Source: Boothiomyces macroporosus (taxonomy: Eukaryota; Chytridiomycota; Chytridiomycetes; Rhizophydiales; Terramycetaceae). Taken from it: a DNA stretch of 64,000 bases. Every line of letters begins with the position of its first letter. Position 1 is the stretch's first letter. Where the stretch lies: NCBI GenBank assembly GCA_027604185.1, contig JADGKB010000046.1:39148-103147 (forward strand), read 5' to 3'. Shown one piece after another: positions 537-63,867 of the stretch. The position numbers were made by a program, and so were the translations under genes. The notes beneath the pieces are model-generated. The model did not search any database, had not been told where the DNA came from, and saw only the letters and a program-made list of their open reading frames with translations.

Positions 537-1030
537 ATGAAATTCTTTGCTATTGCCACTGCTGTAACTGCTGCTACTACCCCAATCGTCTACGGTAGCT
601 TTCGAGATGCATCTGCCAATGCTGTCAGTCCGTTAACCTCTTGTGGTTCGTCATCCGATGTATTCACTCCAAAAGACATTGTATTGACTCCATATCCAGT
701 ACATTTCTATTAACCCAGATTAAAATTGGACAGCCATTGCAAGTAACCGCCACTGGTACATTGTCAGCGCCAATAAACAACGGATCGACTATCACTGTAT
801 CCGTCAAAGAGTTTGGAATTACGTTGTTTAGCAAGACTGAAGACTTTTGCTCGCAAGCTAGCCAAGCAAACAAGACGTGCCCTATTGCTCCAGGTCCACA
901 AGCAATTCAAGCGTCCCAACCAGTGCCAACCAATGTTCCTGCTGGCACCTATAACGTTGAAATCAAACTCAATGATCCTAGCAATGCAGAAATTGCTTGT
1001 TTAAGCGGCAGCTTGCAATTCTCCAAATAA
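537..1030 (+). CDS. NPC2/ML-domain lipid-binding secreted protein
   Basis: Predicted 157-residue secreted protein. The N-terminus (MKFFAIATAVTAATTPIVYG) is a signal peptide, followed by the ML (MD-2-related lipid recognition) pattern of NPC2: a TSCGSSSDVF start, the phrase PLQVTATGTL, a central FCSQ...CPI cysteine pair and a terminal CLSGSLQF strand. Family members bind sterols or phospholipids in the vacuole/lysosome or outside the cell. One 20-nt intron at 699-718 (gtacatttctattaacccag) joins PYP to IKIGQPLQV; without it the reading frame stops. The start is the first ATG after a TATA-like box. Assignment is firm at the family level; the lipid ligand is not known. Confidence 0.85.
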
Positions 1031-1200
1031 ACGCTCATTAAACTATAATTTTGATTGTTGTACTCTTTATTGTACACCAAAGGTAATCTAGGGTATGGAG
1101 AATGATTCTAGTAGTGGCTCATATATTTGCAATTTCAACGAGAATGACAACTTTTAACTGGTGTAATATCATATGGGTTGCAGAGTAACTGTCGTGTCAT

Positions 1201-1959
1201 TCAAAGCAAGTTCTCTCTCAACCATTGCATAGTTTCCGGTTTAACTCTATGTGGTTGAATAGAGGAGATATCGCACGGACAATTATTTTCTTTTAACCAT
1301 TGCAAGTTCTCCAAGTTTCCATTTTCTGCTGCTTCTATAAAAGTTCGATCATTCCATGGGCAATTATTCACTTTAAGCCATTTCATACATTTCAATTTCC
1401 CATACCTTGCAGCATGTGCAAATATATCTTGGTCAAATGGACATCCATTATCTCTCAACCATTTCATGTTTTCCAAGTTTCCATTTTCTACTGCACAGCC
1501 GAATGTCCATTTATCCCATGGACATCCATTTTCTTTCAACCATTTCATGTTTTCCAAGTTTCCAGTTGTTGCCGCTTGCCTAAAGATTTCCTCATCCCAA
1601 GGACACTTATTATCTCTCAACCATTTCATGTTTTCCAAGTTTCCATTTTCTGCTGCTCTAATAAATGTCCATCTGTCCCAAGGAGATTTGTTTTTTCTCA
1701 ACCATTTCATGTTTTCTAAATTTCCATTGATTGCTGCAGCTTGAAAATCCACTTCATCCCACCGAAAGTTGTTTCTTTTCAGCCATTTCAAATTCTCTAG
1801 GTTTCCCTTCTTGGCTGCTCCATAAAATGAGAAAGACTCTGTTATCTTCTTTACATAATCACTTTGTAATTCTCTAGTGTATTTTAAAGTTTCCTTATCG
1901 CAAAATAGCCAAATTTTATCCCAGATTTCTGTTGGCAATCTGTGTTTCTCTGAATTCAT
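1201..1959 (-). CDS. Ankyrin-like (giant-virus type) repeat protein
   Basis: 252-residue protein made almost entirely of 27-residue repeats of the form GNLENMKWLRDNGCPWDE..F..AA, at least seven units. The N-terminus (RLPTEIWDKIWLFC) resembles an F-box start. This repeat style, ankyrin-derived with a conserved WL..N.CPWD core, is known from mimiviruses, protists and some algae rather than from the ankyrin proteins of higher fungi. Repeats are still alike at the DNA level (81-bp unit; the string aaccatttcatgttttccaa recurs), so they are recent or homogenised. Start is the ATG at 1959; an upstream in-frame GTG is not needed. No intron. Function: presumably protein binding, possibly as an SCF substrate adaptor if the F-box holds; that is inference. 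Confidence 0.75.
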   Translation of the reverse strand: MNSEKHRLPTEIWDKIWLFCDKETLKYTRELQSDYVKKITESFSFYGAAKKGNLENLKWLKRNNFRWDEVDFQAAAINGNLENMKWLRKNKSPWDRWTFIRAAENGNLENMKWLRDNKCPWDEEIFRQAATTGNLENMKWLKENGCPWDKWTFGCAVENGNLENMKWLRDNGCPFDQDIFAHAARYGKLKCMKWLKVNNCPWNDRTFIEAAENGNLENLQWLKENNCPCDISSIQPHRVKPETMQWLRENLL

Positions 1960-2485
1960 TGTCACGATGTAGTGAAAAATAACAATTCGTGTTTTATGAT
2001 TTCATTTATTGTCTGCAAATTACCAAATGACCTTGCAATTTGTGCTACGGCTAGAATGCATGATAAGATTCCTAATGATGATAGGCGCGTCAAGCATCGT
2101 CTAAATAGTGCCTTGCAAAGGCACCTATTGCAGCGTAAAGGTGCAAATAGTGTCTATTCCACAGTTGTATGTCAAAAAAGACTGCGGAACCAAATGCAAG
2201 GCTATTTGTGGCAATAGAATGCGGTTAGCAACACGTTTATATGCGGTACTTTAAGAAGCACGCAACTCTATTAATTTGACAGGTATTGACATTATACTTT
2301 GTATTTTTTTACGCTTCAAAATGCGGTAAAGTCCCACAGATCACCCTCCTTGCTTAGCCTACTACTCAAAAAGCCAAATAGGTGTCAAGATTTCGATATT
2401 CAATGAAAAAGTGAAAAATTTTCTTGTCTTATCACAGTGTGTCATTTTGGTTCAGCCACAGGAAAATTTTCACTCTGATCTCAAA
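1960..2485. other. Intergenic between ankyrin-like gene and SNF2
   Basis: About 525 bp between divergently transcribed genes. No convincing coding exon on either strand. It contains an imperfect inverted segment around 2110-2150 (tgccttgcaaaggca) and must hold the promoters of both neighbours. Confidence 0.4.
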
Positions 2486-5400
2486 ATGCAATCACCAATG
2501 GGTTTCCGTCCAGCGGGAATTCCCCAGCATATTATGAATCCAACACAGCTAACACCAGAACAAGTCAATGGATTTATTCAAGTAAAATTAGAGTATTAAT
2601 TTAGTCAGCGAAAAAGAAAAAGGATATGGGAGCTACTGAAGAGAGCGATCCTGAATATGCACGTCTGATGCAAGTATTGAGATCTTGGACGCAGGTTCAA
2701 GGTCATCAAGCTACCGGAGACACAAAATTAACACCACAGCAATTAGCCACACTCAAATTTCAAATTCAAAGTTACAAGCACTTGTCAAACAACGAACCAC
2801 TTCCACCTTCATTGCAGCAGTTATTATATGAAAACAATACCGAGGAAACTACTCAAAATGTTGCCCAAAAGGTTGTTGAAACTACTGTAAAGCTAAGTCA
2901 GCAAAATGCTTATGCTGCAGTGAATAAGCCAGTGGCTGCTAGTGAACATGCTCAAAGACTCTTGGTACCGTCATTGCTTCCACCCGCAGTAGATCCTGTC
3001 GCTCTAATGAAAGAAAAGGAACGTTTCATTCGAGCTCGTGTTGATTACCGTATTGAAGAACTTACAAACTTGCCAAGCAACGTAACAAACAATGAAGACG
3101 CAAAACTCAAAGCTTTAATTGAACTCAAATCTTTGCAGTTATTGGACAAGCAGAGAAGTCTACGGGCAGAGCTCCTCACTTCACTTTCAAAATCTACTAC
3201 TTTAACCACAGCTATTGATAGAAGCTCATTTAGAAGAATGAAGAAACAATCTCTTCGTGAAGCAAGACAAACAGAAAAGCAAGAACGGGCTTTGCGAGGT
3301 GAAAAAGAAAAGCGTGAACGCCAAAAGCATTTGGATTACATCAATTCCATTTTGGCGCATGGAAGAGACTTTCTTACTGCACACCGTCATCAAGCTGGAA
3401 GAATGGTCAAACTTGGTGCTGCTGTAATGCGGTTCCACAGTGCTGCCCTCAAGGAAGAAGAACGTAGGTTGCAAAAGCACTCTCAAGAACGTTTGAATGC
3501 TTTGAAAGCGAATGATGAAGAAGCATATATGCGTTTGCTGGATAAAACTAAAGACACTCGTATCACTACTATCTTGGAGCAAACCAACCAGTTCTTGACC
3601 ACACTTACTAATGCCGTAGAAAAACAAAAGTCATCTGTACAAGAGGTTGACGTTTCTGTCTTGCCTCCTGGTGCAGGTATTAGTTTACGTGAAGATGAAG
3701 AAGAGGAAGGTGTAAGGGATTATTACGCAACTGCTCACAGGATTCAAGAAGAAATCCACGAACAATCTTCTTTGTTGGTTGGTGGTACATTGAAAGACTA
3801 TCAAATCAAAGGTCTACAATGGATGGTTTCTCTGTATAATAACAGATTAAACGGAATTCTTGCAGGTACCTAAATATAACTGTAGATGAAATGGGTCTTG
3901 GAAAGACAATTCAAACTCTTGCTTTAATTACCTATTTGATTGAAAAAAAGAAGCAGCCTGGTCCTTTCTTGGTTATTGTCCCGCTTTCTACTATGACCAA
4001 CTGGGTTTTAGAATTTGAAAAATGGGCTCCTTCAGTTGTCAAGATTGTTTACAAAGGATCACCTAACGAGCGCAAGAATCTCAGCAACTTGGTCAGAGTT
4101 GGAAACTTTAATGTTTTGTTGACTACGTATGAATATATCATCAACCCTAAAGATCGTCCAATTTTATCAAAAATCAAGTGGGTTCACATGATCATTGATG
4201 AAGGTCACCGAATGAAGAATGCTAATTCCAAGCTAGCATTAACCTTGATGCAATTCTATTCGTCCAGATATCGTCTAATTCTCACTGGTACCCCGTTACA
4301 AGTATTTAATGTTTAACCTAGAACAATTTACCTGAATTGTGGGCTCTTCTCAATTTCATTTTACCAAAAATCTTCAACTCTGTAAAATCGTTTGATGAAT
4401 GGTTCAACTCTCCTTTCAATGCCAGTAGTATTCAAGAACGTATTGAGCTTAATGAAGAAGAACAGCTTTTGATTATCAGACGTTTGCACAAGGTTTTACG
4501 ACCTTTCTTGCTTCGTAGACTAAAGAAGGATGTGGAAGCTGATTTGCCTGATAAAGTGGAAATTGTCATCAAATGTCCAATGTCTGCTCTCCAACATCGT
4601 CTCACCGAGCAAATCAAGAACAGAAAGTTTGGAAACGAAGGTTTCACAAAGTAAATAATGAATTAACAAAGAAAAAAAGCATTAAACAACCTTGTCATGC
4701 AATTCAGAAAGATCTGCAACCATCCGTATGTGTTTGATGAAGTGGAAGATATCATGAACCCAGGCCACATTACAGACAGAAACCTGTTTAGAGTATCTGG
4801 TAAATTCGAACTGTTGGATCGTATTTTACCAAAGTTCCAAGCCAAAGACCATAGAGTGTTAATGTTCTTCCAAATGACCCAAATTATGGATATTATGGAG
4901 GATTACTTGCGCTGGAAAAACTTTTCATTCTTGCGTTTGGATGGACACACTAAAGCAGATGATAGAACTGAAATGCTTACAAAGTTCAACAAATCTGAAA
5001 ACCCGCCATTCATTTTCTTGCTTAGTACTAGAGCTGGTGGCTTAGGACTCAATCTGCAAACTGCTGATACTGTGATTATTTATGACTCTGACTGGAACCC
5101 TCACCAAGATTTGCAGGCACAAGATCGTGCGCACAGAATTGGACAAAAGAAAGAAGTCCGTATTTTGCGTCTTGTTACTTCAAAATCTGTTGAAGAGACC
5201 ATCCTTGCCCGTGCACAGTACAAGCTAGACATTGATGGCAAAGTTATCCAGGCTGGTAAATTCGACAACAAAACCAGTGATCGCGAAAGAGAAGAATTGC
5301 TGCGATCCCTATTTGGAAATGAAGATGAAGATCCAGATGAAAAGAATGACGAAAAGGAAGGTGAAATTGAAGACGCAGATTTGAACGAAATTATTGCCAG

Positions 5401-6424
5401 AAATGAAGAAGAATTGGAACTCTATAACAAGATGGATGCTGAAAGAAGAGCTGCTGAACAAGCTAGTTGGGAATTCCACGGTGGTGTTGGGCCAGTTCCA
5501 CCAAGATTGATGCAGGATAGTGAATTACCTGAAATCTTCCTCAAAGATCCTAATGACGACAAGCCGGTGGAAATTTTACATACTGGTCGCGGTGCTCGCC
5601 AAAGAAAAGATGTTGCTTATGATGATGGTTTGAATGAAGACCAATGGTTAAATGCGGTGGATGATGGTGATTTGAATGGATTTATTGCCAGAAAGAAAGC
5701 AAGACAAGCTGAAATTAGGGCTCGTAAAGAAAGACAGGCTGCTGATAGAAAAGCTCGTAGGGATGCAGGAGAAATTGTCGACTCTGATGAAGATGAATAT
5801 GAAGATCCTCTAGAGCTACCAGATCCAGATCCAGATGTTGAAATCCCTAAAAAGAGAGCAGTACGTCAAAAAGCAGAAGATGGGCAACAGAAAAAGAAGC
5901 GCGGACGAGCAAAGAAACACTTTGCCGGTGTTGATCCTGAAATGCAAGAAGTACTTGACCCAGACACTCGTGAAAACTATACTAGAATATTCAAAGCCTG
6001 TTATAAAGCAGTGGAAGAGTTGGAAGTAGAGGTTGAAGGGTAAATTTGCAATAACAATAGGTATACAAGGAAAAGATCTGAATTGTTTTTACAGCTTCCA
6101 GATCGTCAAGATTATGCAGATTATTACAAATTCATCCAAAATCCAATTGCTCTTGATATGATTGCTCACAGAATCAACTCTCCATACTATACCACTGTAA
6201 ATCAGTTTGTAAATGATATGAACCTAATGTTCAACAACGCTTTGCAGTATAACCTAGAAGGTTCTGATGTGTATCATGATGCTATCGCAATGAGGGAAGC
6301 ATTCCAGGAAACTTTGAATCGAGAGTTTCAAAGTGTAAATCAAAAAAGACCAAGAGTGATTGAAGATGACGATGAATTTGACGGCGGAAAGCGGATTCGA
6401 CCAATTCCAAATGAAGAATATTAA
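2486..6424 (+). CDS. SNF2/STH1: SWI/SNF or RSC catalytic ATPase (SNF2/STH1/BRG1 type)
   Basis: 1277-residue ATP-dependent chromatin remodeler assembled from six exons. Order of domains: short N-terminus, HSA helix for actin-related proteins (about 245-320), SNF2 ATPase with DEMGLGKT (Walker A) and DEGH box (about 425-600), helicase C with the HRIGQ motif (about 740-880), SnAC-type acidic segment, and a C-terminal bromodomain ([14 protein letters not shown], about 1165-1265) that reads acetyl-lysine. Introns: 2582-2604, 3866-3885, 4302-4321, 4651-4671 and 6040-6060 (23, 20, 20, 21, 21 nt); each removal restores conserved residues such as ILADEMG and GTPLQNNL. Start is the first ATG, at 2486. 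SNF2 versus STH1 orthology cannot be decided here. Confidence 0.95.
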
Positions 6425-7461: not shown

Positions 7462-8270
7462 ATGCTAGCAAATACACTACTTGTATTCTTCTGGATTCTA
7501 TCCCTAGTCTCTGGGAAAATGACCCACGAACAAAAAGTAAAATTGCGAAAGGAATCCGACGAAGTAGACAAGCACCTGGATTTCCTCAAATTCGATGAAA
7601 TCGCAGACAAAATCAAGACCACAAAGACTCTCTTGATTTTCTTTGGGGCCAACTGGTGCCATAACACTCAAAAGTACAAGAGAAATTTACGCTAGATTCA
7701 ATCCAAAGTATTTGCAAGTCCAACAAAAAGTAAAGGAAGCAGGCTACAAGGACCATGGATTCGAAATGTACAAGGTCGAGTGCGCTATTGATAGAGAAAG
7801 TAAGTTTTGATTGACAGGCAGAGTTTTGCATTGAAAATTATGACGTTGATGGCTTCCCTACACTATTGACTTTTGCAAATGGCAAGTTAAAGGAAGAATA
7901 TCCTTCTGAAGATGAAACTGAAACTTTGCTCAACTACATCAAGCTATTGGTCAAAGAAGGTTCTTCTGAAGCCCCAATTGCTGACCATGAAATCAAGCCA
8001 ATTATTAAAGCTGACAAGAACTATGATGACGAATCTCACCATGATGTTCATCCGCCAGTTAAATTAGAAGAAGAAGTTAAAGAAGACAAGGAGGTAGTTG
8101 TATCTTAATCATAGGCTGTTACTCCAAGCGGGTCTATTTTACCATTCCTGTTGGTGGTCGGAGTTGTTGCTGTAGGTGCTGTAGCGTATGTGCAAAGAAG
8201 AAACAAACATACTTATGGCTCCGTATCTGGAAAATCCAATGATGACTATGGAAAATCCTATGATGAATAA
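7462..8270 (+). CDS. Membrane-anchored thioredoxin-like (PDI-type) protein
   Basis: 247-residue protein with an N-terminal signal peptide (MLANTLLVFFWILSLVSG), a thioredoxin fold of PDI type and a single C-terminal transmembrane helix (ILPFLLVVGVVAVGAVAYV) with a short basic tail, so probably an ER lumenal domain facing the secretory lumen. The active-site region reads GANWCHNTQKF, so only the first cysteine of the usual CxxC is present; the cis-proline loop (DVDGFPTL) is intact. Introns at 7674-7695, 7800-7821 and 8094-8114 (22, 22, 21 nt). With one cysteine it could bind thiols or act as a chaperone rather than an oxidoreductase; this is inference. Confidence 0.75.
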
Positions 8271-11300: not shown

Positions 11301-12210
11301 AAAATGGGTGTTTCAAACATTCTGTTGCAGATGGCCGCTTTTCAGGATTCTTTTCCAAACAAAATGCTACAAAATCAACCAATTGCTTTGAGAAATTCTT
11401 TGGTTTGGCCAAACCGATATTTGTTTTTGGGATAAGGTTCAATGCTTGCATAGGGTGAATATCACATAAAGGAGGGTTCTTTTCAGCAACTTCTATCACG
11501 GTAATACCTATGGACCAAATATCAGATCTATCACTATATGAAGCTGAACCACTCTTTGGATTGTCCGGATCACACATGATAACTTCAGGAGCCATCCAAT
11601 ATCTACGTTAGTAATCAGATACGGAGTCCCAATGAATGTATTTGCTCTCCCTCCAACACTTTTCAACATTGCAGAGACTCCAAAATCTGCCAATTTAACC
11701 TGGCCAGATTCGGTCAACAACAAGTTTCCAGACTTGATATCTCTATGAATCAACCCTACTTTGGTATGCAAGTATTCAAGCGCAAGTACAGTTTCATAAA
11801 TAATAGCAGAAATAGCATCCTCAGGCAACGGTTTCTTTAGCGCTACCATTAACAACACCAACCTTTGTAAACAGAATCAACCGCACCAGCACCGCAAAAC
11901 TCCATTGCAATCCACAAGTCCAATCCTTTCAGAAAACATTGGTGAAATCGAGTAATGTTTGGATGCACGCATTTCTCCAGTATTTCCATTTCCAATAACG
12001 TTTCCTTGATTTCATCCTCTTTTAGAAATACAACTTTTATCGCTACAATTTCATTCTCTTTGAGTAATTTTGCCTTTGGTCAACAATTGTTACTTTATAA
12101 ACTGAACCGTAGTTTCCTTTGCCGATGGTCTCTATCAGCTGCACCTGCCCTCTGGGGTTTTGCATGGTCTTGAGAATAGGAAAGTCCCTTGCATACTGTG
12201 CAATTGACAT
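8320..12210 (-). CDS. GCK-type Ste20 kinase with CNH domain and Pro-rich repeats
   Basis: 1276-residue kinase. Residues about 20-290 are a Ste20/germinal-centre kinase domain with [11 protein letters not shown], the VAIKVV lysine, [13 protein letters not shown] and [10 protein letters not shown] citron-homology (CNH) domain spans about 390-800, and the tail (about 815-1276) is proline/arginine-rich with tandem units [11 protein letters not shown] and QEGFIRPP. The kinase-CNH order is that of GCK-I kinases such as MINK/TNIK, which act upstream of MAPK and cytoskeletal pathways downstream of small GTPases. Introns 12074-12093, 11843-11862, 11603-11622, all 20 nt; the last contains a perfect TACTAAC. 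The second has an unusual GTTGG donor. Confidence 0.9.
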
Positions 12211-12519: not shown

Positions 12520-13609
12520 TTATTTCTTTTGTTGGCGTTGTTTTTGGATTTCTGCGTAGAGTGCTTTTCTTTCTTCTCTCGTTTTGGCATTCTTGATGGC
12601 TGCCCATGGATCATCAGAAACAATTTTACGCTCTTCAATGATTTTCTTTTCTGCCAAGAATGGTATCTGGAAACCAGAGAGTAAGAGACAGGTTTCATAG
12701 TCGTTTCTACCGCTAGTTATAAATGTGACTTCTGTCTCGAATAATCTTGGGAAAGAGTCGAAATGTGGTTCAATGTCTGGAAATGTACCTAGATTAATAG
12801 AAATATACCAACAGCAGATGCCGGAAGTTTGACAGTTAATGATCCTTTTCCATCTCCAATTGGATTTACACCTTCGTATTCTCTAATACGTGGCAATACA
12901 CACTGCACTAGCTTGTCCAAGAATGAATACATTTGCTCTCCTTTAATTTCAACCGTGGCACCCAATGGCATTCCTTTTCTAATCTTTTTCGAGTGATCGC
13001 CAGTTTCTGCAAACAGAGGGACTGGTCTTTTGCCAGTGATTGACTGTAGTGACATGATGGCAGACAATAAAATAGACCTTTGTTAAATTAACTATACTTG
13101 TTTGCAACCGCTTCTTCTGCCCAGATTTTCAATTGAATTCTTTTTAGTCCTGGAATTCTATTTGGAAATGGGGTGTAGTAAGGTGGGGGTGGTAGTTCTG
13201 CAGGAGCAAGAAACTCTTCCTTTTTTATAGGAGTGAAATCAATTGGATTCTTTAATTTCTTTCTAATCAATTTAGGAAATATTGGCAGTCCAATATGCTC
13301 ATATTTTACAGTCGCCAAATTTGATGTAATATTAGTGGTTGGCTTTGTTGGTAAATCCGCAACTGGTGTAGTAAATGTACTTTCATCCAGTGCGTCTAAA
13401 TTAGACTTCCAGAAAGCTGATTTTTCCAATCGTTCCAAACTAGCTTGAGGTGAGCTGTGGTCATAAGTCAAAATCATTAAATCGTCATACAGAGTCTCGT
13501 AATAGTGCGTTTCCAAGCGAGGAATCAGCGGGATAGGGTTCACTACTGAAACCTTTTCTACTTCGGTGGACATGCATCTGAAATTCCTAATATTCCTGAT
13601 CAACCGCAT
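12520..13609 (-). CDS. MRPL7: Mitochondrial large-subunit ribosomal protein uL5m
   Basis: 349-residue mitochondrial ribosomal protein. An N-terminal presequence-like stretch (MRLIRNIRNFRC) precedes a ~150-residue lineage extension and the uL5 core: KSILLSAIMSLQSITGKRP, then KGMPLGATVEIKG and a C-terminal FPDIEPHFDSFP segment. uL5 contacts 5S-type rRNA/the central protuberance and P-site tRNA in the large subunit. Introns at 13078-13097 and 12789-12808, both 20 nt, split the core in conserved places. Yeast MRPL7 is the presumed orthologue. Confidence 0.9.
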
Positions 13610-14665: not shown

Positions 14666-16292
14666 TTATTCAGGGTCTTTGATAAATTCAAAATAATTGG
14701 GTATGCGTTCATTTACAGGTTCTGTCTGACCAAACAGTGGCTTATTCGACCATTCAAGCATGTTATCATTTAGAAAATTCATTGCCAAATTATGCAAGCG
14801 AGGAAACTTTTTCAAATAACCAAGAGAAGTTGATAAAATAATTAACAAGCCGTTTCCAGTAGAACGCAAAACTTCCTTGAGAAAATTAAGATGCTGGTAT
14901 AGTGCGAGCTGCAATTGCAAGGACAGTGACGCTGGTAATTCGAACGTGGTGTTTAGGTAGATTAAAATCGTCAAATGATATACCGAAAGCTAAATTAAAT
15001 ACAAAATACAATATAGGTGGGAGGCGGAATAGGAAAAGACGGTCCAGAATTGTTTGCGGCGTTTAAGAGCTCTGTGTTGTCCTTTGCTATGCTCACAAAC
15101 TGGACGTATGGTTTCAAGTCTTTACTATTTGCATTATGGTTTAAAATCAACGGTGTTATCACGAAAGCTCTAGCAAAATTGTAGAGTAAGGCTGTTTCCA
15201 TTACTTTTAACCCTTTTCCTCTAAGTGGTTCACCAGAATGTAAGTATTCCTTAAACGCAGCAGGAAGATTATTCCACCATAGTTGAAGAGACCCCTCCAA
15301 CACTGAAATAACATACTTGATATTAACTTTGTTCTCTTGTTCATGATACGCATTGATGAAATGAAGAATTTTCCCCAAAATTCTTACGAGCAGGATTCTG
15401 CACGCCAGAATACTTTCAGTTTCAAATGGCGGTGTAAACAATTCGCTAGAAGACAAGATAAGCATTCCTAGTTGTAATGTTCTATCGACTATTGCTGGTG
15501 GCTCCTTGGATTCGGGTAAGAACAGGCCGTTATCGCAATCTTGCAGAATAGAACAATCCCTGATTTTGAAAAACTGATCTAGAGTATAGATATACCACCA
15601 TAATTTTCTTATTTCTTCTTTACCCGGTTCAGTTGAGCAAATGGTTTCCAATCTTTCTTCGCGGTTGATGCCAATTTCCTTTGCCATCTGAATGGCATAC
15701 TTGTAATATGCAGCTCCTTCATCAAAGCGATTTAAACCTATGTTAGTGATATAGTACGATAATGGAGGAATGCAAAAGAAAGTATACCTTGGACAGCTGT
15801 TATTGAATGGCAAGAGATTACTTGTGTTAGATATTGAGAGGCAAACTTCAAGCTTTTAGAGGCATTCTGGTGTTGGCCCAAGAGATCATATCCAAGACCC
15901 CTAGCAGAATACTTTAATATTGGACAACTTTGTGATGCAGATTGCCAACCCTGAACTGCCATGGATGAAGAATCAGCAATATATTCCAGGAATAATTTCT
16001 CTGCAAATTCTCCATTCAAGTCAAATGTCAGTGGTTGATCTACTAGTGGACTTTGTCTAATTCCAGTAAAGCAACCTGGAGCTTTGATTTTAGCATTTTT
16101 GACAGGATAAACATCTTTTTCCAGCACTTGCTTTGCAGATTGATTATTCCCGGTGGGGTCTTCATTGTGTTGATAGTTACTGTACACGCAAAAGGATTTC
16201 GATGCAATACACGCAGAACATTTTGGCCTTTCTCTACTGCACTTTATTTTCTTTCTTTTGCAATTCAAGCAAGTGTTTACCCTTTTCCCCAT
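14666..16292 (-). CDS. Zn2Cys6 transcription factor, paralogue 1
   Basis: 528-residue regulator. Residues 8-38 form a Zn2Cys6 binuclear cluster (CLNCKRKKIKCSRERPKCSAC), followed by a fungal-specific transcription factor region with signature RKLWWYIYTLDQFFKIR. Introns 15738-15757 and 14990-15009 (20 nt each); the second lies at the same place as the single intron of the paralogues at 35678 and 37616, the first is unique to this copy. Related throughout to those two genes, including GxGYDLLGQ, E.GAAYYKYAIQMAKEIGIN and a C-terminal LP..L..QL.LAL segment. Targets unknown. DNA-binding role follows from the family. Confidence 0.9.
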
Positions 16293-17810: not shown

Positions 17811-17898
17811 TTGCTTCTTTAGCTCAAATGGTAGAGCAGCCCTCACTTGAAATTGAAATATCACTCGGGAAGGATGTTGGTTCAAATCCAGCAAGAAG
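17811..17898 (+). tRNA. tRNA-like sequence, isotype unresolved
   Basis: An 88-nt tRNA-shaped segment: 7-bp acceptor stem gcttctt/aagaagc, D-arm gctc-aaatggta-gagc that also fits the Pol III A box, and T-arm gttgg-ttcaaat-ccagc fitting the B box, followed by a T-run (terminator-like) at about 17900. The length suggests a ~15-nt intron or a long variable arm. The anticodon stem does not pair convincingly (only CCC/GGG), so the anticodon cannot be read and the gene may be atypical or degenerate. Confidence 0.5.
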
Positions 17899-17909
17899 CA
17901 TTTTTTTCT

Positions 17910-18401
17910 TTATTGCAACTTTGATAATCTGTCTTTGGCAATCAAAATCATATCTCTTAAACCAGTTTTCAACTCTTCATCTTTCGTATTGTGCATTCGC
18001 TGTTCGATTACTCCAACAATTTCTTGTCTACTTCTTCCATTCACAAACACTACGAATTTGAATCCAAACTTGTCTTCGTATTGCTTGTTTAATATTGCTA
18101 GTCTTTCCAATACTTCTTTTGATACCTGGCTTCCTTGTTCTTTTTTCGATTGCTCTGATAGGGTTTGAGCAGGCGCTCCTATTCTAGGATGCGCATTAAC
18201 GACGGCTATTTGGTCCTGCAAATTCATTTGTTTAATGAATTCATCAGATTTTTCAATTAATTGAATGTAAGATGAATACGGCTTGTGTTCGATCAGTTTC
18301 TTTTGAAGCGGAGGTGCGGTTTCAAAGAGCGTGTTGATTACATGGATGAAATCTGCTTCTGGTAGGCTCTTTAATTGATCGATTGTTGGCAGTTTTTGCA
18401 T
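17910..18401 (-). CDS. URAD: OHCU decarboxylase (uric acid degradation)
   Basis: 163-residue enzyme decarboxylating 2-oxo-4-hydroxy-4-carboxy-5-ureidoimidazoline to S-allantoin, the last step of urate oxidation after urate oxidase and HIU hydrolase. Visible signatures: the catalytic-histidine loop VNAHPRIGA, LNKQYEDKFGFKFVVFVNGR and the closing EL..GL.DMI.IAKDRL. Length is normal for the family. The C-terminus ends SKLQ, one residue away from a peroxisomal SKL signal, so peroxisomal import by PTS1 is not supported. No intron. Urate oxidase is not in this window. Confidence 0.9.
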   Translation of the reverse strand: MQKLPTIDQLKSLPEADFIHVINTLFETAPPLQKKLIEHKPYSSYIQLIEKSDEFIKQMNLQDQIAVVNAHPRIGAPAQTLSEQSKKEQGSQVSKEVLERLAILNKQYEDKFGFKFVVFVNGRSRQEIVGVIEQRMHNTKDEELKTGLRDMILIAKDRLSKLQ

Positions 18402-18557
18402 TTGAAAATTTCAAAATTAAAATCAGAGTTGACACAAGATACCAAAACATTTGATTTGTAACAAGCTATCCCTGAATACCAAAATATTTGTAAATACAAT
18501 TACCAGCCACTTATGGTCAACATACTCGCATTCGAGCTGCTCTAAGTTGGATTTTTC

Positions 18558-18782
18558 ATGACCAACAAATACGAATCTCAAGCAGTCACCGATTACCCAT
18601 GCAAGAAATACGCTTGTGCAATTCAAGCTTGTATATACAGAAACAGTTACAATCAAGATAAATGTCAAGAGTACGTTTTAAAATTTGAAGAATGCTGCAT
18701 GCAAATAGATAGGGAATTGCCTAATGCCAGTTATGGGTGTCTGGGAGTGTGGAAGAAACTAGATAAAAAATCAGAGAAATAA
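18558..18782 (+). CDS. CMC4: CMC4-like twin Cx9C mitochondrial protein
   Basis: 74-residue protein with two Cx9C motifs (CKKYACAIQAC and CQEYVLKFEEC) separated by the helix turn of the CHCH fold, the hallmark of proteins oxidised and trapped in the mitochondrial intermembrane space by the MIA40 relay. The ACAIQ.C and CC arrangement resembles CMC4/p8-MTCP1. Divergent from the OHCU decarboxylase gene with about 156 bp between start codons, and convergent with family member B, whose stop is only 7 bp away. Confidence 0.8.
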   Translation: MTNKYESQAVTDYPCKKYACAIQACIYRNSYNQDKCQEYVLKFEECCMQIDRELPNASYGCLGVWKKLDKKSEK

Positions 18783-18789
18783 ACTATAT

Positions 18790-19320: not shown

Positions 19321-19341
19321 AGCGAATCATTCAGCAATATT

Positions 19342-19836: not shown

Positions 19837-20012
19837 TTGGCAAGTTTTTTGATGCACAGTTTCATCAAGTGGAGGCGTCTGATTTTGACACCAAACGCAA
19901 AATGCCAATTACAAAAGACATCAGTCTATCATTAAATTGATAAACTGACCATTAATCAGTGATATTGTGCAAATTGAGTTGGAAAGTATATTGAGAGATT
20001 AGTTGGTTTTTA

Positions 20013-21543: not shown

Positions 21544-21621
21544 TTCCTTAATATATCCCTATTTTATTAAGTACGTTAAAGATGATGAATAGCAAGCCAG
21601 TAGCTAAACTGGATAGCAGAT

Positions 21622-28787: not shown

Positions 28788-30996
<2,209 letters not shown>

Positions 30997-47447: not shown

Positions 47448-48100
47448 TTAAAATCCAGATGCGGCGAGGGTAGCATTAACTGCCTTTAATTCTCCGGCAG
47501 CCTTCTTTTCGGCAGCAGCACGGAGACGTAAAAGAGCCTTCTTCTTTTCGTAGAATGCCTTGGATTTAACCTTTCTCTTTTCTTCAAGAGTGGCAACAAC
47601 ATCGTTGTATTTCCATCCGAATTCAGTGGATAAACGCTTCAAGGTGGTGTATTTACGTCCTGGAGCAAGACGGAGGACACGAAGAGCTTGTGGGATAACA
47701 AGACGCTTTTGTTTGTCGTATGGTGGTGGAACACCTTCAAATACCTTGAGACGTTCCAAAGCAGCAGCACCACGAGCAGTCTTGTGTGGGATCATACCAC
47801 GAATGCAACGGTAAAAGATGCGAGAAGGAGCTCTGAAGTGGAATGCACCTCTCTTTGGGTTAACGATACAACGTTTGCGCATGAAAGCCATGAACTTGAC
47901 TATTTGTTAATATTTCTCTTACGTTTGTTACGGAAAAATGGTCCTGACATGTTGATTTCTTCACAGCGAACCAAGGTAACTTTTTGTCCGTTCAATAATT
48001 GTTTTGCAACAGTTGCAGCAAGACGTCCCATAAGATGACCTTTGGCGTCAACGACAATTTCCTGATATTAATTCCAATGTTGTACCTTTTCAAATGCCAT
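47448..48100 (-). CDS. RPL16: 60S ribosomal protein uL13 (L13a/L16)
   Basis: 201-residue cytosolic ribosomal protein, normal length. Reads [73 protein letters not shown] and [11 protein letters not shown], all family blocks. Introns at 48062-48085 (24 nt, after only five codons) and 47900-47922 (23 nt), both above the usual 19-21 nt here. A five-codon first exon is the classic layout of fungal ribosomal protein genes. Confidence 0.97.
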
Positions 48101-49413: not shown

Positions 49414-50780
49414 TTAATAAATTATGGTTCCGTTGCAGGTAAACCGTAATTTTCCGGCGTACAACAGTCTATCCCCAATATCATAGAGATCTTTGACAAA
49501 CCTGTCTTTTACCGTAGAGTTGAATGTTATGCGATAATCCCTAATAATGTTGACTGGTCCATATTGGTCCCAGTCATACGAATTTTCCTCCTTCATTTCC
49601 TCAAACCATACAGCAGCTTTAAGTTTGGGCAACTTTTTCTTGTCCTTGTCCAGTATCGAGATCCAGAATATCGCCCTACCGTTAACGCTTTATACCTCCA
49701 CCAACTCTCTTTAATCTGTACTTCTTGGTCTATTAGGGGAAGAGACAAATCGTTTTTGATAAGGGGTCTTGAATCAGGTGCGTTATAGGCAAATGCGGAA
49801 CCAGTTTCAGAAAGGATGAACGGTTTGCCAGTCTTTACTACAAACCTGTCATAGAAATTCAGGTGGTTCTTGTCCGACCTTAAAGTAGCTACTGCGTTAG
49901 GGTCATAAAAGACAAAGTCTGGAACCGCTGCTGTCTGATGGGTGGTATGAGAATGTCTGTAATAATTATAGATTGAAATTCCTACCCAGTCCACCCATTC
50001 ATCACCAGGATAGAACGGCATGTAAGGATCATCTAAAACAGTAATCTGTCCATCATTGTTGGTATCCAGCATTTTAAACCCTTCCGACCCTTTTGGTGGA
50101 AACCCTGACACACCGAATGGGTATCCAAAGCCAGAATTTGGACTCCATACCATTGCTGTCATATTGGTTTGCTCTCTAATCAACTTTGTCAAAGTAATCC
50201 ACGTCTTTTTCTGCTCTACTGGTTGAAACCCGTATGCCATCCAATTACCTGTATTAACAAGTATTACCATTCATTTCATGCATGAATCTTAATAGTACAG
50301 CAACACCGTATTTAGAATTAATCTTTCGCATAAATTTGGCGTATTTTTGCAATATATCAAATTCAAGCTCATCAGCTCTAACTGTAGGCTGCAGAGTGAT
50401 TTCCAACATCCCGCCTTGTTCTTGCATTAGCTGTGCCTGCCACTCGATAATGTTCTCTTCGTATCCAGAATTGTTTATCTTGACAAAGGTGCTGTGTTAA
50501 TGCCTAGTTACTTGATTAGAGGAACGGCAGGCCCGCCAAGCCTATCTCGAAGGGCCTGAGGATGATCAATCGCCCAATCTAAGCTGAATCCAAATATGAA
50601 TTTATCTGCTGGTGGTTCCAGTCTTGCTCTTCCAGCTGTGGTATCATGAAAGCACATTTGACTATCTTTGGAATTAATTGGTGGCATATATACAGGGTCT
50701 AGAGGTCTGATGGCTATGTTAGTGTAAATTACGTGGAATGAAACGAATGTGAACCATATAGACTTGATAGGCCATTGCAT
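49414..50780 (-). CDS. Secreted GH26-type glycoside hydrolase with EF-hand-like loop
   Basis: 435 residues, four exons; introns 50492-50511, 50249-50267, 49676-49695 (20, 19, 20 nt). Start set at ATG 50780, giving a signal-peptide-like N-terminus (MQWPIKSIWFTFVSFHV). An upstream TTG is not used. GH26 features: VAVLLRFMHEMNGNW (acid/base Glu), WVDWVGISIYNY, and GKPFILSETGSAF (nucleophile Glu). Likely a beta-mannan or related glucan hydrolase acting on cell walls. Between strands it carries DTNNDGQITVLDD, a calcium-binding EF-hand/dockerin-type loop, not a normal part of GH26. An alternative 5' splice using a 19-nt intron near the start cannot be excluded. Confidence 0.8.
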
Positions 50781-52288: not shown

Positions 52289-52308
52289 TAAATACTTTAG
52301 TCATATAT

Positions 52309-53805: not shown

Positions 53806-54709
53806 ATGAATCAAGCGATGAACTTAGCTGGCTACGGAGAGCAATACGGAGGTAATCCAACAACTAATCATAGTGCGTGACGATTTACTAAAAGCCGAAG
53901 AGTTCAATAGAACCGGCACACCTGGTTTAGACATTGAAAATTACGGAGGTGAAGAAGAAGACGATGATGATGAAAAGCCAGCCAAGAAAGCCGGTCGTAG
54001 AAAGATTAAAATTGAATACATTGAGGACAAGTCTCGTCGTCACATTACGTTTTCCAAGAGAAAAGCTGGTATTATGAAGAAAGCGTACGAATTATCTACC
54101 CTCACTGGAACTCAAGTATTGTTGCTCGTTGCATCAGAAACTGGCCATGTTTACACTTTTGCTACTCCAAAGTTACAGCCATTGATTACCAAGCCAGAAG
54201 GAAAGAACATGATTCAAACCTGCTTGAATGCCACCGATGCTCAAGCATCTACCGCACTTCCAAACCCTGTCCCAGGATATGGTGCTACTTATCAGCCAAC
54301 TCCAATCCACTCACCTGCTCCTCGCCCAATGTCGGCAATGTCGATGCCTTACTCTGAAAATATGGGATCACCAAACCAAAGACAGAACCTGCCAGACAAT
54401 GAAGATTCCTTGTTGTTACCAAGTTACAACCAAATGCCAACAAGCAACAACTATTCTAACACCTACAACTCTGCCGGTTTACCACTATCCCCTCCAACTG
54501 GATACATGTACCCAAACAATTACAATATTTCCCAAAACCCTCAATATAACCATCTAGTTCAAAACAATGGGCGTCAGTCTCCACAGTTACCACAAAATGT
54601 AATGCAGAACGATGTTATGAGAACGGCTTCCCCTGCTCAAATGATGATGCGAACCTCCACTCCAATGAACGACGATATGTATGAATTGAAGACGGAAAAT
54701 AGACAGTAA
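53806..54709 (+). CDS. MCM1: MADS-box transcription factor (MCM1/SRF type)
   Basis: 293 residues. A short acidic N-terminus (EEEDDDDEK) precedes a complete SRF-type MADS box with SAM extension (GRRKIKIEYIEDKSRRHITF, then SKRKAGIMKKAYELSTLTGT and LVASETGHVYTFATPKLQP), which binds CArG/P-box DNA as a dimer. The rest is Asn/Gln/Pro-rich and likely an activation region. One 22-nt intron at 53852-53873 separates a 15-codon first exon. Type I (SRF-like) rather than MEF2-like by the KIK.EYI and TYIFATPKL signatures. Confidence 0.93.
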
Positions 54710-55052
54710 TTTCACGATTTTAATTTAAGCAGTAATAAAATCCTTATTTAAAGCATTTATCTTTTATTTGATTGGTTTTTTGTCGTGGAAGCATACTAGT
54801 ACGACTGATACTGCAGTTCACCTGCCAAATGTTTACGATATTGGTGGGGGGTTTCAAAGATGGGCTCTTTCCTGAATGAACAGATGGACGTTTCATACGC
54901 ATTCATAAGAATGGGCTCTCATCTTAAAGGATGAAACATACGAGTAAGGAAGTGACGGTTCCATTCTATCGATTTAGCCACAACCACGGTAGCTATATCT
55001 GTATATGGTACAATGAATGGCGCCAAATTCAAAGTAGGTTTATTGGTTTCTA
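54710..55052. other. Intergenic between MADS gene and small secreted protein
   Basis: About 340 bp between convergent genes; contains a direct short duplication of the string gatgggctct/aatgggctct. No gene seen. Confidence 0.35.
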
Positions 55053-56833: not shown

Positions 56834-57743
56834 ATGTCTGAAAAGAAAAAAACAGTGCCTGCAGGAATATCACTAGCAGCAGGTATAACTGCCGGAGCAG
56901 TTGAAGGCACAATAACATATCCAACTGAATATATTAAAACACAGCTACAAATTCAAAAAGATGTATTTATTACTAATGTAGAACAGATTCAAAGGGCCGA
57001 TCGACTGCCTGGTAAAAACAATTCGAGAAAAGGGAGTCTTGGGGCTTTACCGTGGATTGTCAGCGCTAGTAATTGGAAATGCAGCCAAAGCAGGTGTCAG
57101 ATTTCTTGCTTTTGATCAAATTAAAGCCTTGTTTGCAGATAAGCATGGAAAGGTGTCTGCGACTGGAATGGTGCTGTCTGGATTATCTGCGGGTATTGCG
57201 GAAGCAGTAGTAGTTGTTACTCCGTCAGAGACGATCAAAACCAAGCTAATTCATGACCAGAACAGCGCAACGCCACGGTTTAGAGGTTTAATTCACGGTG
57301 TTAGAACTATTGTTGCAGAAGAAGGGATATCTGGTATATATAAAGGTGTATCGGCGGTTGTAGCTCGTCAAGGTGCTAATTCAGCCGTGAGAATGTCTTC
57401 TTATGGATTGATCAAAGAAAAATTGGCAACTCACTATCCAATTGACTCCAAAGGAAAGCCGATTGTGCCTTGGTATACTACCTTCTTTACAGGTGCAATT
57501 GCTGGTGTGATTACAGTGTACGCGACAATGCCATTCGATGTTGTAAAGACTAGACTTCAGTCGCTGAACGCCAGTCAGTACAATTCTTTTGTCGATTGTT
57601 TTGTTAAAGTGCTAAAGAACGAAGGTGTTGGTGCGTTATGGAAAGGTGCAACACCTCGTCTAGGTCGGTTGATATTCTCTGGCGGTATAGTATTCACTGT
57701 ATACGAAGGCTTCATCAAAGTATATGAAGGTTTGAAGAAGTAG
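56834..57743 (+). CDS. CTP1: Mitochondrial citrate/tricarboxylate carrier
   Basis: 296-residue SLC25 carrier with three repeats, signatures PTEYIKTQLQIQ, PSETIKTKLI and PFDVVKTRLQS, each followed by the G..GLYRG type glycine motif (GLYRGLSALV, GIYKGVSAVV, ALWKGATPRL). The GNAAKAGVRFLAFD and ARQGANSAVRMSSY phrases are those of the citrate transport protein, which exchanges citrate for malate across the inner membrane. One 19-nt intron, 56963-56981. Start ATG 56834. Confidence 0.93.
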
Positions 57744-59688: not shown

Positions 59689-60891
59689 ATGGCTCTCCAA
59701 CACTCTAGGGTCGTTCAGCTGTCGGTAGTTGGTCTCGCATTGCTTGCCGCTTCGCTGTTCTTCAAAAAAAAGAAACCATCCCCTCATGAAAAGTACTATT
59801 CAGATGACTACTACACTGCAAGAGATAAATTCAGAGCCGCCTCTGACGGAAAGGGCAAAACCTATCAACTACAAATCACTGAAAAGTATACGACTGATAT
59901 TCTAGTATATCCAGGATCCAAGTCCAAATTGCTTGTTGTCATTTCAGGAGTAGCTTGTAATTAATCACAGGTTCATGGAGTTGAAGGATATGCTGGATCT
60001 GCAATTCAATTAGCTCTACTTGAAAAGTTCAAACCAACAGGAAAAGATCATCCAACTGTTGTGTTTGTACATGCTTTGAATCCGTATGGTATGGCTGAAT
60101 TCCGTCGATGGAACGAAAATGGAGTAGATTTGAATAGGAATTACTTGTCAAAGGAAGAATTTGCCGAGTTGAGACAAAGCGATCCAAATGTAAATGGGTA
60201 TGTCAACATGTTTGACATGCTTAACCCTAAATACGTCCCAAACCCTTGGACTGATTTTTTCTATGCTAAATCAATCTATTACATTCTGAAATATGGATAC
60301 TTGTCTGTAAAGAGAGCTATAGTCTGTGGAAACTACCATTTTGAAAATTCAGTCTTTTTTGGTGGGTATGAACTTCAAAAGAGTCATGTTTTACTTACGG
60401 AATTCTTGAAAACTCATATTGACGTTGATGCGGTAAAGAGAGTGGCATTTATAGACATTCACACTGGATTAGGACCTGCAGGATTTGATACTTTGATGGT
60501 AGAACACACTGGCAGGGATATCATGAAAACAAAATCGATAGATGATGAGTTTAGAGCTCATGCAGCACTACTAGGTGATCCAAACGACAGCGCCTCTTCT
60601 GGCTACGACGCAGTAAACGGAACTGCCATTTCTGGGCTTTGTAAACTATTCAAAAACTCTGAATACAATGCATTAATTACTCAAGAATTTGGAACGGTAT
60701 CAAGTTTGAAGGTCTTTAGAGCTCTTCGTGCAGAAGCAGCGGCTTACAGAATTGCAAAAGAAGACAGAAAAGGCTATGACAAGGCCGTCCGGGATGTCTT
60801 TTATTCCTGGAAAGACCCAGAATGGAAAACTAGTATTGTTGAAAGAGGGATTCGGGTATTTGAGCAAATGTACGACAGTTTGAATGAATAG
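59689..60891 (+). CDS. DUF2817 (M14-like) peptidase/deacylase-fold protein
   Basis: 393 residues. An N-terminal membrane anchor (VVQLSVVGLALLAASLFF) precedes the DUF2817 domain with ISGVHGVEGYAGSA, HALNPYGMAEFRRWNENGVD, LNRNY, and IDIHTGLGP followed by a late QEFGT; the His and Glu residues are the zinc ligands and catalytic Glu of carboxypeptidase-M14-like folds. One 21-nt intron (59950-59970) restores SGVHGVEG. The family is common in bacteria and patchy in fungi. Substrate unknown. Confidence 0.85.
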
Positions 60892-62041: not shown

Positions 62042-62063
62042 AATAAATAGATTAGAGTATTTA

Positions 62064-63031
62064 TTATAGAAAGGGGTTCTCCAAGGTTTTTACATTGGTT
62101 TCAAAAGAGTTTTTCAGGTGGTAATTGTCGTATCTTGACATTTGGTTTCTAGAAGAGAGTCTGGAATGTGCTCTGTCTCTTGATGGTAACAGTCTTGTTT
62201 GTGGTCTATCCCTTGATTGAAGTGTTAGTCTTGAATTGTATGATTTGGCTGGTGATGGGGCAAACCTGCTTGTTGAATGTGGTGATTGAACGTAATAATC
62301 TAACCTAGATTTTAATCCGACATTTGAAATCGAGTTGCTAGATTCATAGTTGTTTGAATAGTGCCGAACATTTTCTGACAGGTTGTTCCGTCGATCAAAG
62401 TGTCTGCTATTGCCAGTTGATGTATTCAGTCTTTTAGACTGTTTTGGAGTTTCTAATCGATGTTGTTTTGGGTAGAGATTGGGCTCAGCTGGTGCATTCG
62501 TTCCAGTTGATCTATGTCAATATTACTTACACGCGGAAATGCTTGCTAACGTATTCAGGCTCTCTCTTGTCATGATACAGATTCTCGCCATCAAACCTCT
62601 TCCTCAACTCCTTTTTCAACTCTTCATTTTCTCTTTTCAACTTTTGGTTCTCTTCGTAAGCCTGCTTCAATAGCAATTTTGAATGAGTATAATTACTCTC
62701 ATTCTTTTTCGACTGCAGGCAGTAATTTAAGCAGGATTTTTTCAAGTAGCTAATCATGTCATTTGACTGGTTGGTTTGGTAAGTGAGCAATGCAGTCAAA
62801 TCTTCAAGGTGGACATTTGCAGGAGTCAGGACTTGATTCAACTTTTCAGAATGGTAGGGAACAAAGACTGACTTTGAATTACACACTGGGCATTCATCAG
62901 ATTTCAAGCAATTCCTGCATACACTGAATTAATCGGGATTACCAATGAGAACAGTCACCCACAAACAAAGTATTTTGTGAATGCTTGTAGTAGTAACAAA
63001 CGTTGCAATGCAGCCATTCTGGAATTTCCAT
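62064..63031 (-). CDS. ZIP3/RNF212/HEI10-like RING protein
   Basis: 309 residues, three exons; introns 62924-62942 and 62512-62530 (19 nt each). The N-terminus is a C3HC4-type RING split by the first intron: WLHCNVCYYYKH...CSHC|VCRNCLKSDECPVCNSK. A coiled coil (LLLKQAYEENQKLKRENEEL) and a Ser/Arg-rich tail follow. This order is that of the meiotic SUMO/ubiquitin ligases Zip3, HEI10 and RNF212, which act at crossover sites. Implies a meiotic programme. Divergent from the LRR gene with 40 bp between starts. Confidence 0.8.
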
Positions 63032-63071
63032 CTAAAAAGTAAACTTTAAGCTTTTTAAATTCGCGTCAAAA

Positions 63072-63867
63072 ATGAAAATCACAAAGGAAATAATCTTGTC
63101 TGGATCTACAAACAAGAAGCATGTAACGACTGCTGAATTGGGAGGCTTGAAAATTGAAGAGTTGAATGACTTTGACCAGTTTCCACATCTGCAACACCTG
63201 TATCTGTACGAGAACAATATCAAGCGAATGGACGGTCTTCAGTCACTCTACAATCTAAAGACATTGTATCTGCAGTCAAATCAAATCCAACAAATATCTG
63301 GGTTAGAAAGGCTGCTGAATTTGACTTTTCTCAACCTCCGTTTGAACAATATTTCAAAATTGGAAAACTTGCCAGCGAATTTGGAAACGTTGCTGTTGGA
63401 TAAGCAACGGTCCCCAATTGAAATTGTAGAAATTAATGACAGCTTGAAAACGCTGTCTTTGAACCAAAACGAAATATTGAATTTGCAGGATTTAAAGGGA
63501 AACTTGGAACGGCTGTTCATCTCAGACTGTCAGATAAAAGATTCAACAGTAATAATAGTTTATATAGGTGATTACTAGGGTTAGCAAGAACCTTGTTGAA
63601 ATTAATTTCAGTAATAATCCAATCAAAGATCGACGTATTCGCCAACGCCTTGTGGTACTAGGGCTCCAAGTAATCAATGACAAACCAGTTAGTGAAAAAG
63701 AACGTGAATTTGCTATTGGAATGTCAAAGTACAAAAGAGTGGAAAAAATCGTCCTGAAGACTGAATTTGTAAGGCAGAATGTAATTCCGCACTTGCCGCC
63801 TTATGCTACCCAGTACAGGGACTTGATTTTGCAAAAGATGCAGGGAGTGGCCGCTAATCCGAAATAA
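63072..63867 (+). CDS. PPP1R42-like leucine-rich repeat protein
   Basis: 258 residues. SDS22-type LRRs (FPHLQHLYLYENNIKRMDGL, LYNLKTLYLQSNQIQQISGL, LTFLNLRLNNISKLENL) and the LLLDKQRSPIEIVEI segment recall PPP1R42 (LRRC67/TLLR), a centrosome/flagellum-linked protein phosphatase 1 regulator with a matching ENQRLP segment. One 19-nt intron, 63549-63567, before NLVEINFSNNPIKD. If correct it favours a flagellated ancestor or lifestyle. Confidence 0.7.

Follow-up and report, generated by a model that had tools for sequence, protein, structure and literature searches.

Introns of about 20 nt, described here in a 64-kb stretch of fungal DNA (the window) and in the genome to which it belongs, are already known as a kind; here they are found in a true fungus. 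The nucleomorph of the chlorarachniophyte Bigelowiella holds more than 800 introns of 18–21 nt in about 300 genes, heterotrich ciliates carry introns of 15–16 nt and the mikrocytids (Mikrocytos and Paramikrocytos) introns of 16–17 nt, for which deletion pressure acting up to the functional limit has been proposed, and in the microsporidia, which are related to the fungi, introns are few and relatively short (PMC10245619). A first-pass annotation of the window had already named the nucleomorph and the ciliates as parallels, to which the mikrocytids are added here. In the ciliate Stentor coeruleus, with introns of 15–16 nt, the branch adenosine lies at nt 10 and is followed by a tail of 5 nt, the glycine plug of Cwc25 has been lost and the N-terminus of Isy1 is not conserved (PMC9505925). 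The introns of Paramecium bursaria have a median length of about 24 nt and number 39,715, or 2.7 per gene (PMC12862383), and in Yarrowia, Trichomonas and Giardia the branch is fixed near the AG and there is no polypyrimidine tract (PMC2483917). A pan-eukaryotic survey omitted introns below 30 bp, so that introns of such size are invisible in it (PMC10639083). Among the literature matches listed, with the subscription literature mostly outside their scope, no report of ultra-short introns in a chytrid was found, and the accessible parts of two chytrid genome papers (PMC13391722 and PMC5364385) give no intron lengths.

The introns of the present genome are very probably ordinary introns of the U2-type (major) spliceosome that have shrunk towards the physical minimum in a chytrid in or beside Boothiomyces. 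As judged by protein matches, the source of the DNA is in or beside this genus, which the NCBI taxonomy places in Terramycetaceae, Rhizophydiales, Chytridiomycota. The FIG4 protein, encoded on another contig, matches that of Boothiomyces sp. JEL0838 with 98% identity (72% of the query covered) and those of Boothiomyces sp. JEL0866 and Terramyces sp. JEL0728 with 81% identity (44% covered in the latter), the PMT protein is 91% identical to that of JEL0866, and importin alpha has Globomyces (75%) as its next relative after a near-identical record. The genome first described as fungus-like is thus fungal and can be specified as that of a chytrid. Boothiomyces is free-living. Its relatives carry JEL numbers, which refer to a culture collection (PMC7537106).

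Intron lengths and numbers

The sample amounted to 264 kb in 21 stretches: besides the window, 20 other contigs of the genome contributed one 10-kb stretch each. Introns were counted with a gene finder trained on its own introns, restricted to GT-AG boundaries and provided with a length term that favours 19–23 nt. Its first rounds, run without that term, gave many 'introns' of 30–200 nt, most of which were lost with the term and some of which fuse neighbouring genes; these are not counted.

In the window, 71 introns were found in 21 of 32 gene models. Sixty-nine are 19–27 nt long (14 of 19, 29 of 20, 14 of 21, 7 of 22, 2 of 23, 2 of 24 and 1 of 27 nt), and 57 of these fall at 19–21 nt. The other two calls, of 169 and 200 nt, were left uncounted, and their host model probably fuses neighbouring paralogues. 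The first-pass annotation had counted 66 introns, spread over 25 genes; 30 were of 20 nt and 55 of 19–21 nt, all with GT-AG ends and within 19–27 nt, and the recount comes close to these figures.

Over the 264 kb the finder produced 140 gene models with 402 introns, of which 381 are 18–24 nt long (2 of 18, 77 of 19, 168 of 20, 92 of 21, 26 of 22, 12 of 23 and 4 of 24 nt). The short introns occur on all 21 stretches, with 6 to 68 per stretch; 110 of the 140 models carry introns, and a total of 402 in 140 models is not that of a genome with few introns per gene. Most of the 381 introns (360) would disrupt the reading frame if kept in, a figure to be read with the preference of the finder for such introns by design, and 240 contain in-frame stops. 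All three phases are represented (176, 108 and 97 introns).

A strict intron pattern, searched on both strands of the whole 15.2-Mb assembly, gave 5,181 matches against 270 for the same pattern reversed. Together with the sampled introns, this count establishes a dominant narrow length class below about 25 nt, and it bears out the genome-wide extent that had been proposed. Since the strict pattern captures 102 of the 381 called introns, its 4,911 net matches would correspond to roughly 18,300 introns, and a plain extrapolation of density gives roughly 23,150. The intron number of the genome is therefore estimated, roughly, at 18,000–23,000; the 'hundreds of introns' of the first-pass annotation should probably read tens of thousands.

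Tests that do not presuppose a length

GTA, YTAAY and AG were searched for in a motif scan that covered all total lengths between 12 and 119 nt, with the expectation taken from a first-order Markov model. Over the 264 kb the observed matches exceed the expected ones at 19 nt (84 against 20), 20 nt (107 against 19), 21 nt (60 against 23) and 22 nt (35 against 24), flanked by 23 against 18 at 18 nt and 22 against 26 at 23 nt. The remaining lengths lie near expectation, the largest departures being those at 16 nt (25 against 13) and 29 nt (37 against 23). Called introns account for 58 of the 84 matches at 19 nt, 91 of the 107 at 20 nt, 35 of the 60 at 21 nt and 12 of the 35 at 22 nt, and for none of the 62 at 16 and 29 nt. 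Of the 16-nt strings themselves, one ends in the same AG as a called intron; the other 24 use an AG of no called intron and follow no common layout. In seven of the 25 strings, the branch lies at index 10 (counted from the first G, index 13 being intron nt 14) with a 5-nt tail, where 2.5 would be expected.

A gene finder that was given only codon statistics, GT-AG boundaries and a flat length prior of 10–150 nt placed 87 of its 189 introns at 19–22 nt. With decoy dinucleotide pairs the corresponding figures were 8 of 164 (TG-GA), 9 of 167 (GA-TG), 4 of 143 (CT-AC) and 7 of 165 (AG-GT). No length peak arises from the decoys, which marks GT-AG as the boundary of the short introns.

Spliced alignment to foreign proteins

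Introns were also placed by homology, with a protein-to-DNA aligner that permits GT-AG gaps of 10–300 nt at a single flat penalty. The references were proteins of Globomyces, Gorgonomyces, Batrachochytrium dendrobatidis (Bd), B. salamandrivorans (Bsal), Spizellomyces and others, together with Sth1, PAK1 and the U2AF23 of S. pombe. In total 33 introns were placed in this way, of which 30 are 19–22 nt long and none exceeds 27 nt; 20 of them lie in the window (importin alpha 5, PMT 7, SNF2 3 and two PAK genes 5). Their removal restores these conserved proteins, as the first-pass annotation had maintained.

The importin alpha gene (minus strand) has introns of 27, 21, 22, 20 and 21 nt (26310–26336, 26183–26203, 26072–26093, 25920–25939 and 25543–25563), cut at identical bases with all four reference proteins (the near-identical record, Globomyces, Gorgonomyces and Bd). 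An 88-nt intron of early models in this gene was discarded, as the alignment shows a 22-nt intron and an adjoining exon stretch of 66 nt in its place. In the PMT gene (plus strand) the proteins of Globomyces, Entophlyctis and Bsal indicate introns of 19, 20, 20, 22, 20, 22 and 19 nt (22498–22516, 22712–22731, 23070–23089, 23720–23741, 23945–23964, 24181–24202 and 24475–24493), with additional long gaps at the end in the case of Entophlyctis and Bsal. The record of Boothiomyces JEL0866 agrees on six of these, which thus have the support of 4 of 4 homologues, and puts a 95-nt gap over the place of the third, supported by 3 of 4. PMT gaps of 41–288 nt were dropped, each being seen with a single homologue (three homologues, JEL0866 among them).

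The SNF2/STH1-type remodeller gene (plus strand), aligned to Sth1, contains introns of 20, 20 and 21 nt (3866–3885, also called by the gene finder, 4302–4321 and 4651–4671); an 18-nt gap at 3677–3694 was dropped as it lies in a poorly conserved stretch. Alignment to PAK1 places introns of 20, 21 and 21 nt in the kinase region of the first PAK gene (30130–30149, 30427–30447 and 30548–30568, plus strand) and of 20 and 20 nt in that of the second (32353–32372 and 32753–32772, plus strand). The two PAK kinase genes stand in tandem at 28788–33185 on the plus strand; with three kinase-region introns in one and two in the other their intron positions agree only partly, which makes the pair handy for dating gain or loss.

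Outside the window, FIG4 shows ten introns of 21, 20, 19, 20, 24, 21, 21, 23, 20 and 20 nt. With the JEL0838 record set aside, every one of them has the backing of between 3 and 6 of the 6 homologues; for the last intron two homologues favour 29 nt over 20. The U2AF35 gene has introns of 19, 19 and 20 nt. The SNF2, PAK and U2AF35 introns were placed with a single reference each. Further FIG4 gaps of 10–268 nt, seen with six homologues, were dropped since they lie at ends or in weak stretches or replace several introns, and an upstream 19-nt gap seen with one homologue was dropped as well.

The aligner was also run without any splice-site rule in four cases (importin alpha twice, PMT and FIG4), and the gaps recurred at the same places. 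Their length is identical in 24 of 27 gaps and off by 3 nt in the other 3; exact GT-AG ends were obtained in 7 of 27, and in the remaining 20 the cut overlaps the GT-AG interval with a shift of at most 4 bases, once of 13. The inserts are therefore real relative to other fungi, whatever their GT-AG status.

FIG4 also includes a micro-exon of 12 nt (stretch L017:7683–7694) between the 20-nt and 24-nt introns. The JEL0838 record has one 56-nt gap over the 20-nt intron, this exon and the 24-nt intron, and it skips a further exon within a 268-nt gap. As the JEL0838 FIG4 model appears to skip an exon and the JEL0866 PMT model to put a 95-nt gap for a 20-nt intron, the automatic annotation of the genus Boothiomyces may be partly wrong. 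For annotators this is a warning: in the genes checked, the public models of these close relatives have introns in the wrong place or leave out an exon. Many such introns have already been removed by annotation in the public proteins of close relatives, so that the fact is implicit in the databases.

It could be supposed that the dominant 20-nt class is accompanied by a sizeable, missed set of ordinary introns of 50–200 nt. Twenty-one of the 402 called introns do lie outside 18–24 nt, 15 of them at 48–200 nt. Some of these long calls, however, resemble fused neighbouring genes, the motif scan, which reached 119 nt, shows no other broad peak, individual lengths (29 nt, for example) being somewhat high, and the 33 homology-placed introns are all of 27 nt or less once the longer single-homologue gaps at ends and in weak stretches are set aside. 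A second class of this kind is improbable, although it is the alternative that survives best.

Donor, branch and acceptor

Most of the introns begin with GTA and end with YAG, with a yTAAy-like branch motif. Among the 68 window introns of 18–24 nt, YTAAY stands right before the AG in 52 and YTNAY in 58, in line with the TTAAY/CTAAY noted in the first-pass annotation, and the intron with the perfect TACTAAC is present as a 20-nt gene-finder call in the kinase-CNH gene (11603–11622, minus strand). When the motif was learned by expectation maximisation on the 381 introns with its position left free, the commonest pentamer was TTAAT (93 of 381). In 284 of the 381 the branch A is the 14th or 15th nucleotide of the intron (index 13 or 14, the first G being index 0), and the tail after it is 5 or 6 nt long in 304; shorter tails are rare (4 nt in 12 and 3 nt in 1). 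The lengths of 19, 20 and 21 nt thus follow from 14+5, from 14+6 or 15+5, and from 15+6, respectively. The closeness of donor, branch and acceptor that had been pointed out from the window is hereby made exact.

These positions come from introns called with a fixed 3' profile in the finder. The same geometry appears without any gene model when all GTA/YTAAY/AG combinations in the 264 kb are compared with a second-order simulation. With tails of 5–6 nt, 4 combinations were observed at index 12 (4.5 expected) and 111 at index 13 (3.8 expected), followed by 68 at index 14, 20 at index 15 and 6 at index 16. The loop therefore has a lower edge that is sharp to one base and an upper edge that decays over three bases. 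Tails of 3 and 4 nt at index 13–14 give a smaller excess (10 against 2.3 and 18 against 4.0), and called introns make up 0 of the 10 and 8 of the 18; no called intron has GTA-YTAAY at index 9–12 with a tail of 3–6 nt.

At the donor, position +5 lacks the usual preference for G (T 175, A 87, G 62 and C 57 in the 381 introns), and GTAATT is the commonest donor (52 of 381) despite a canonical 5' end of U1.

Splicing machinery of the genome

U2 small nuclear RNA (snRNA) is encoded by two diverged genes, both with GUAGUA, and U1 and U6 gave one match each. U1 starts with AUACUUACCUG and carries ACUUACCU, and U6 retains ACAGAGA. The motif learned from the introns (yTAAy), the GUAGUA of U2 and the spacing peak obtained without supervision together indicate a U2-complementary branch motif at a set distance. 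Searches of the genome found Slu7, Prp18 and U2AF35; SF1 was found with SF1-HH, KH and zinc knuckles, and the spliced model of U2AF65 has three RRMs. Inspection of U2AF, SF1 and U2, suggested in the first-pass annotation, thus finds all of them present and ordinary.

The major spliceosome is accordingly present in the parts searched (U1, U2, U6, U2AF65, U2AF35, SF1, Slu7 and Prp18). A reduced spliceosome of the mikrocytid or microsporidian type is not what was found, all five searched 3'-site proteins being present among the few parts searched. The large subunit of U2AF is retained though the gap between branch and AG is a few bases at most.

Proposed mechanism and its rivals

In the mechanism proposed here, U1 and then U6 would pair with the 5' end and U2 with yTAAy, the loop formed on branching would measure about 14 nt, and the 3' site used would be the YAG directly behind the branch, with no space for a polypyrimidine tract. 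As there is no room between branch and AG, the large subunit of U2AF would have little or nothing to bind. Deletion pressure would have pushed the introns against two floors of spliceosome geometry, from 5' site to branch and from branch to 3' site, and such a push to the floor would produce a sharp lower and a soft upper edge.

A more specific proposal, which we put forward tentatively and as one that may well fail, is that the introns are of exactly the smallest size that geometry allows to an opisthokont spliceosome which is otherwise complete, with at least 12 nt from the first G to the branch A where the motif is clear and a tail rarely below 5 nt. The floor between branch and 3' site might then be universal and that between 5' site and branch might be set by adaptable branching-step proteins. 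Stentor, with the same 5-nt tail and a shorter loop, suggests that the tail floor is possibly common and the loop floor shiftable; by analogy, Cwc25, Isy1 or other proteins of the branching step are perhaps what shifts the loop limit.

Removal of genuine insertions by other means than a spliceosome (ribosome bypass, protein splicing or a novel RNA step) would accommodate the fact that excision is here read from sequence. Programmed elements of 20 nt of other kinds do exist. The GT-AG ends, the U2-complementary branch motif, the presence of all three phases and the spliceosomal parts found all speak against it, and the in-frame stops of 240 of the 381 introns speak against translation through the segments, so that this explanation is very improbable. 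Assembly or sequencing artefacts, in the form of short frame-breaking indels that resemble introns, are known from poor assemblies, but they would not produce GTAA, YTAAY and YAG at a set spacing 5,181 against 270 times nor a floor sharp to one base, and with no N in any of the 21 stretches the chance that they explain the data is minute. A minor (U12-type) or other specialised spliceosome can be set aside almost entirely, for although U12-type introns also have their branch motif near the 3' site, the donors are GTAATT-like and differ from the U12 donor consensus, and the introns have a U2-type branch motif.

The reading as ordinary U2-type introns, the spliceosomal nature of which seems supported in every test run, has to be weighed against the following points. 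Excision is deduced from protein homology and DNA sequence, and the deletion pressure and the geometric floors are deductions as well. In the window, 49 of the 69 introns depend on a gene finder that was self-trained and biased to 19–23 nt, the remaining 20 being placed by spliced alignment. The class is narrow and not uniform: the 'uniform 20-nt class' of the first-pass annotation holds as a peak at 19–21 nt and fails for aligned members of 23, 24 and 27 nt. As regards the branch, 161 of the 381 introns have no strict YTAAY beside the AG and 88 not even YTNAY; outside nt 14–15 the learned position is nearer in 46 and farther in 51, and the 46 nearer ones are taken to be probable wrong assignments. 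Pattern matches of 16 nt are likewise in excess (25 against 13). U1 scored 68.8, under the gathering cut-off of 69.5, and U2AF65, searched exon by exon, 230.7 bits, under the family cut-off of 310.3. RED_N (PF07808) gave no match in the whole genome; the control genomes were equally silent and nothing is drawn from this. RED is the partner of Smu1, and a title cited in PMC12862383 names the two as a requirement of short introns in human cells.

Further introns and other features of the window

The remaining introns of the window come from the gene finder. On the plus strand they include one of 20 nt in a gene for a small secreted-like protein, named by eye (699–718); three in the SNF2/STH1-type gene, of 23 nt at its 5' end (2582–2604), 21 nt (2674–2694) and 21 nt in its 3' part (6040–6060); and, in unnamed models, introns of 22, 22 and 21 nt (7674–7695, 7800–7821 and 8094–8114), of 20, 22 and 19 nt (27557–27576, 28140–28161 and 28357–28375) and of 21 nt (59950–59970). 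The first PAK gene has three more (20, 19 and 20 nt; 29398–29417, 29525–29543 and 29947–29966) and the second two (20 and 21 nt; 31462–31481 and 31601–31621). Fungal transcription-factor paralogues carry introns of 21 nt (36213–36233, in a model that probably fuses paralogues), 21 nt (36983–37003), 19 nt (37712–37730), 21 nt (38187–38207) and 20 nt (38957–38976), and the RhoGAP gene introns of 20, 20, 21, 19, 19 and 19 nt (45195–45214, 45440–45459, 45529–45549, 45584–45602, 46384–46402 and 46581–46599). Genes named by eye provide the others on this strand: MADS-box-like (22 nt, 53852–53873; 24 nt, 54706–54729), mitochondrial-carrier-like (19 nt, 56963–56981) and LRR protein (19 nt, 63549–63567).

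On the minus strand, besides the TACTAAC intron, introns of 20 nt lie in the kinase-CNH gene (12074–12093 and 11843–11862), in a ribosomal L5-family gene (13078–13097 and 12789–12808) and in a zinc-cluster-like transcription factor gene named by eye (15738–15757 and 14990–15009). The ribosomal uL13 gene has introns of 24 nt (48062–48085) and 23 nt (47900–47922). Unnamed models on this strand contain introns of 19 and 20 nt (22295–22313 and 21626–21645, a weak model), of 19, 20 and 20 nt (34949–34967, 34640–34659 and 34462–34481) and of 19, 20, 19 and 20 nt (50714–50732, 50492–50511, 50249–50267 and 49676–49695).

A tRNA of 88 nt was found with Rfam at 17813–17900 (plus strand), with an apparent small intron in the anticodon loop by eye; ARAGORN reported no tRNA in the 64-kb window and missed this one. 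Two adjoining, similar and intron-free membrane-protein models occupy 39386–43927 (minus strand), which by eye we take to resemble the LTA-synthase/sulfatase family.

Comparison with known systems

Stentor has snRNAs and U2AF, a fixed branch position and a 5-nt tail, and the same is seen here (PMC9505925). Its branch A lies at nt 10 with a weak branch motif, whereas here it lies mostly at nt 14–15 in a clear yTAAy, and its introns occur in 18% of genes, against 110 of 140 models here. The mikrocytid introns are, as here, very short, uniform and conserved in sequence (PMC10245619); Mikrocytos, however, has 224 introns, and in these parasites 17–19 spliceosomal proteins were found, whereas the present genome has many thousands of introns and the tested parts are present. 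Paramecium is likewise intron-rich with very short introns, but it is a ciliate and its introns are somewhat longer.

Yarrowia, Trichomonas and Giardia share the short, constrained distance between branch and AG; those genomes are intron-poor and this one is intron-rich, which goes against the link reported in PMC2483917 between tight branch–AG spacing and few introns. The branch motif is also looser here than in the genomes of that paper, TTAAT being found in only 93 of 381 introns.

With the Bigelowiella nucleomorph this genome shares an almost equal narrow size range and many introns per genome. The nucleomorph is the relic of an algal nucleus and its genome is extremely reduced, whereas the introns described here, an estimated 18,000–23,000, belong to a 15.2-Mb fungal nuclear genome. 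The published extremes belong to ciliates, to a relict nucleus and to parasites, all far from the structurally solved spliceosomes of yeast and human. The minimum length of a removable intron is an open structural question, for which this fungus serves as a test case, and so large an estimated number of near-limit introns in a fungus moves that question close to the yeast and human models.

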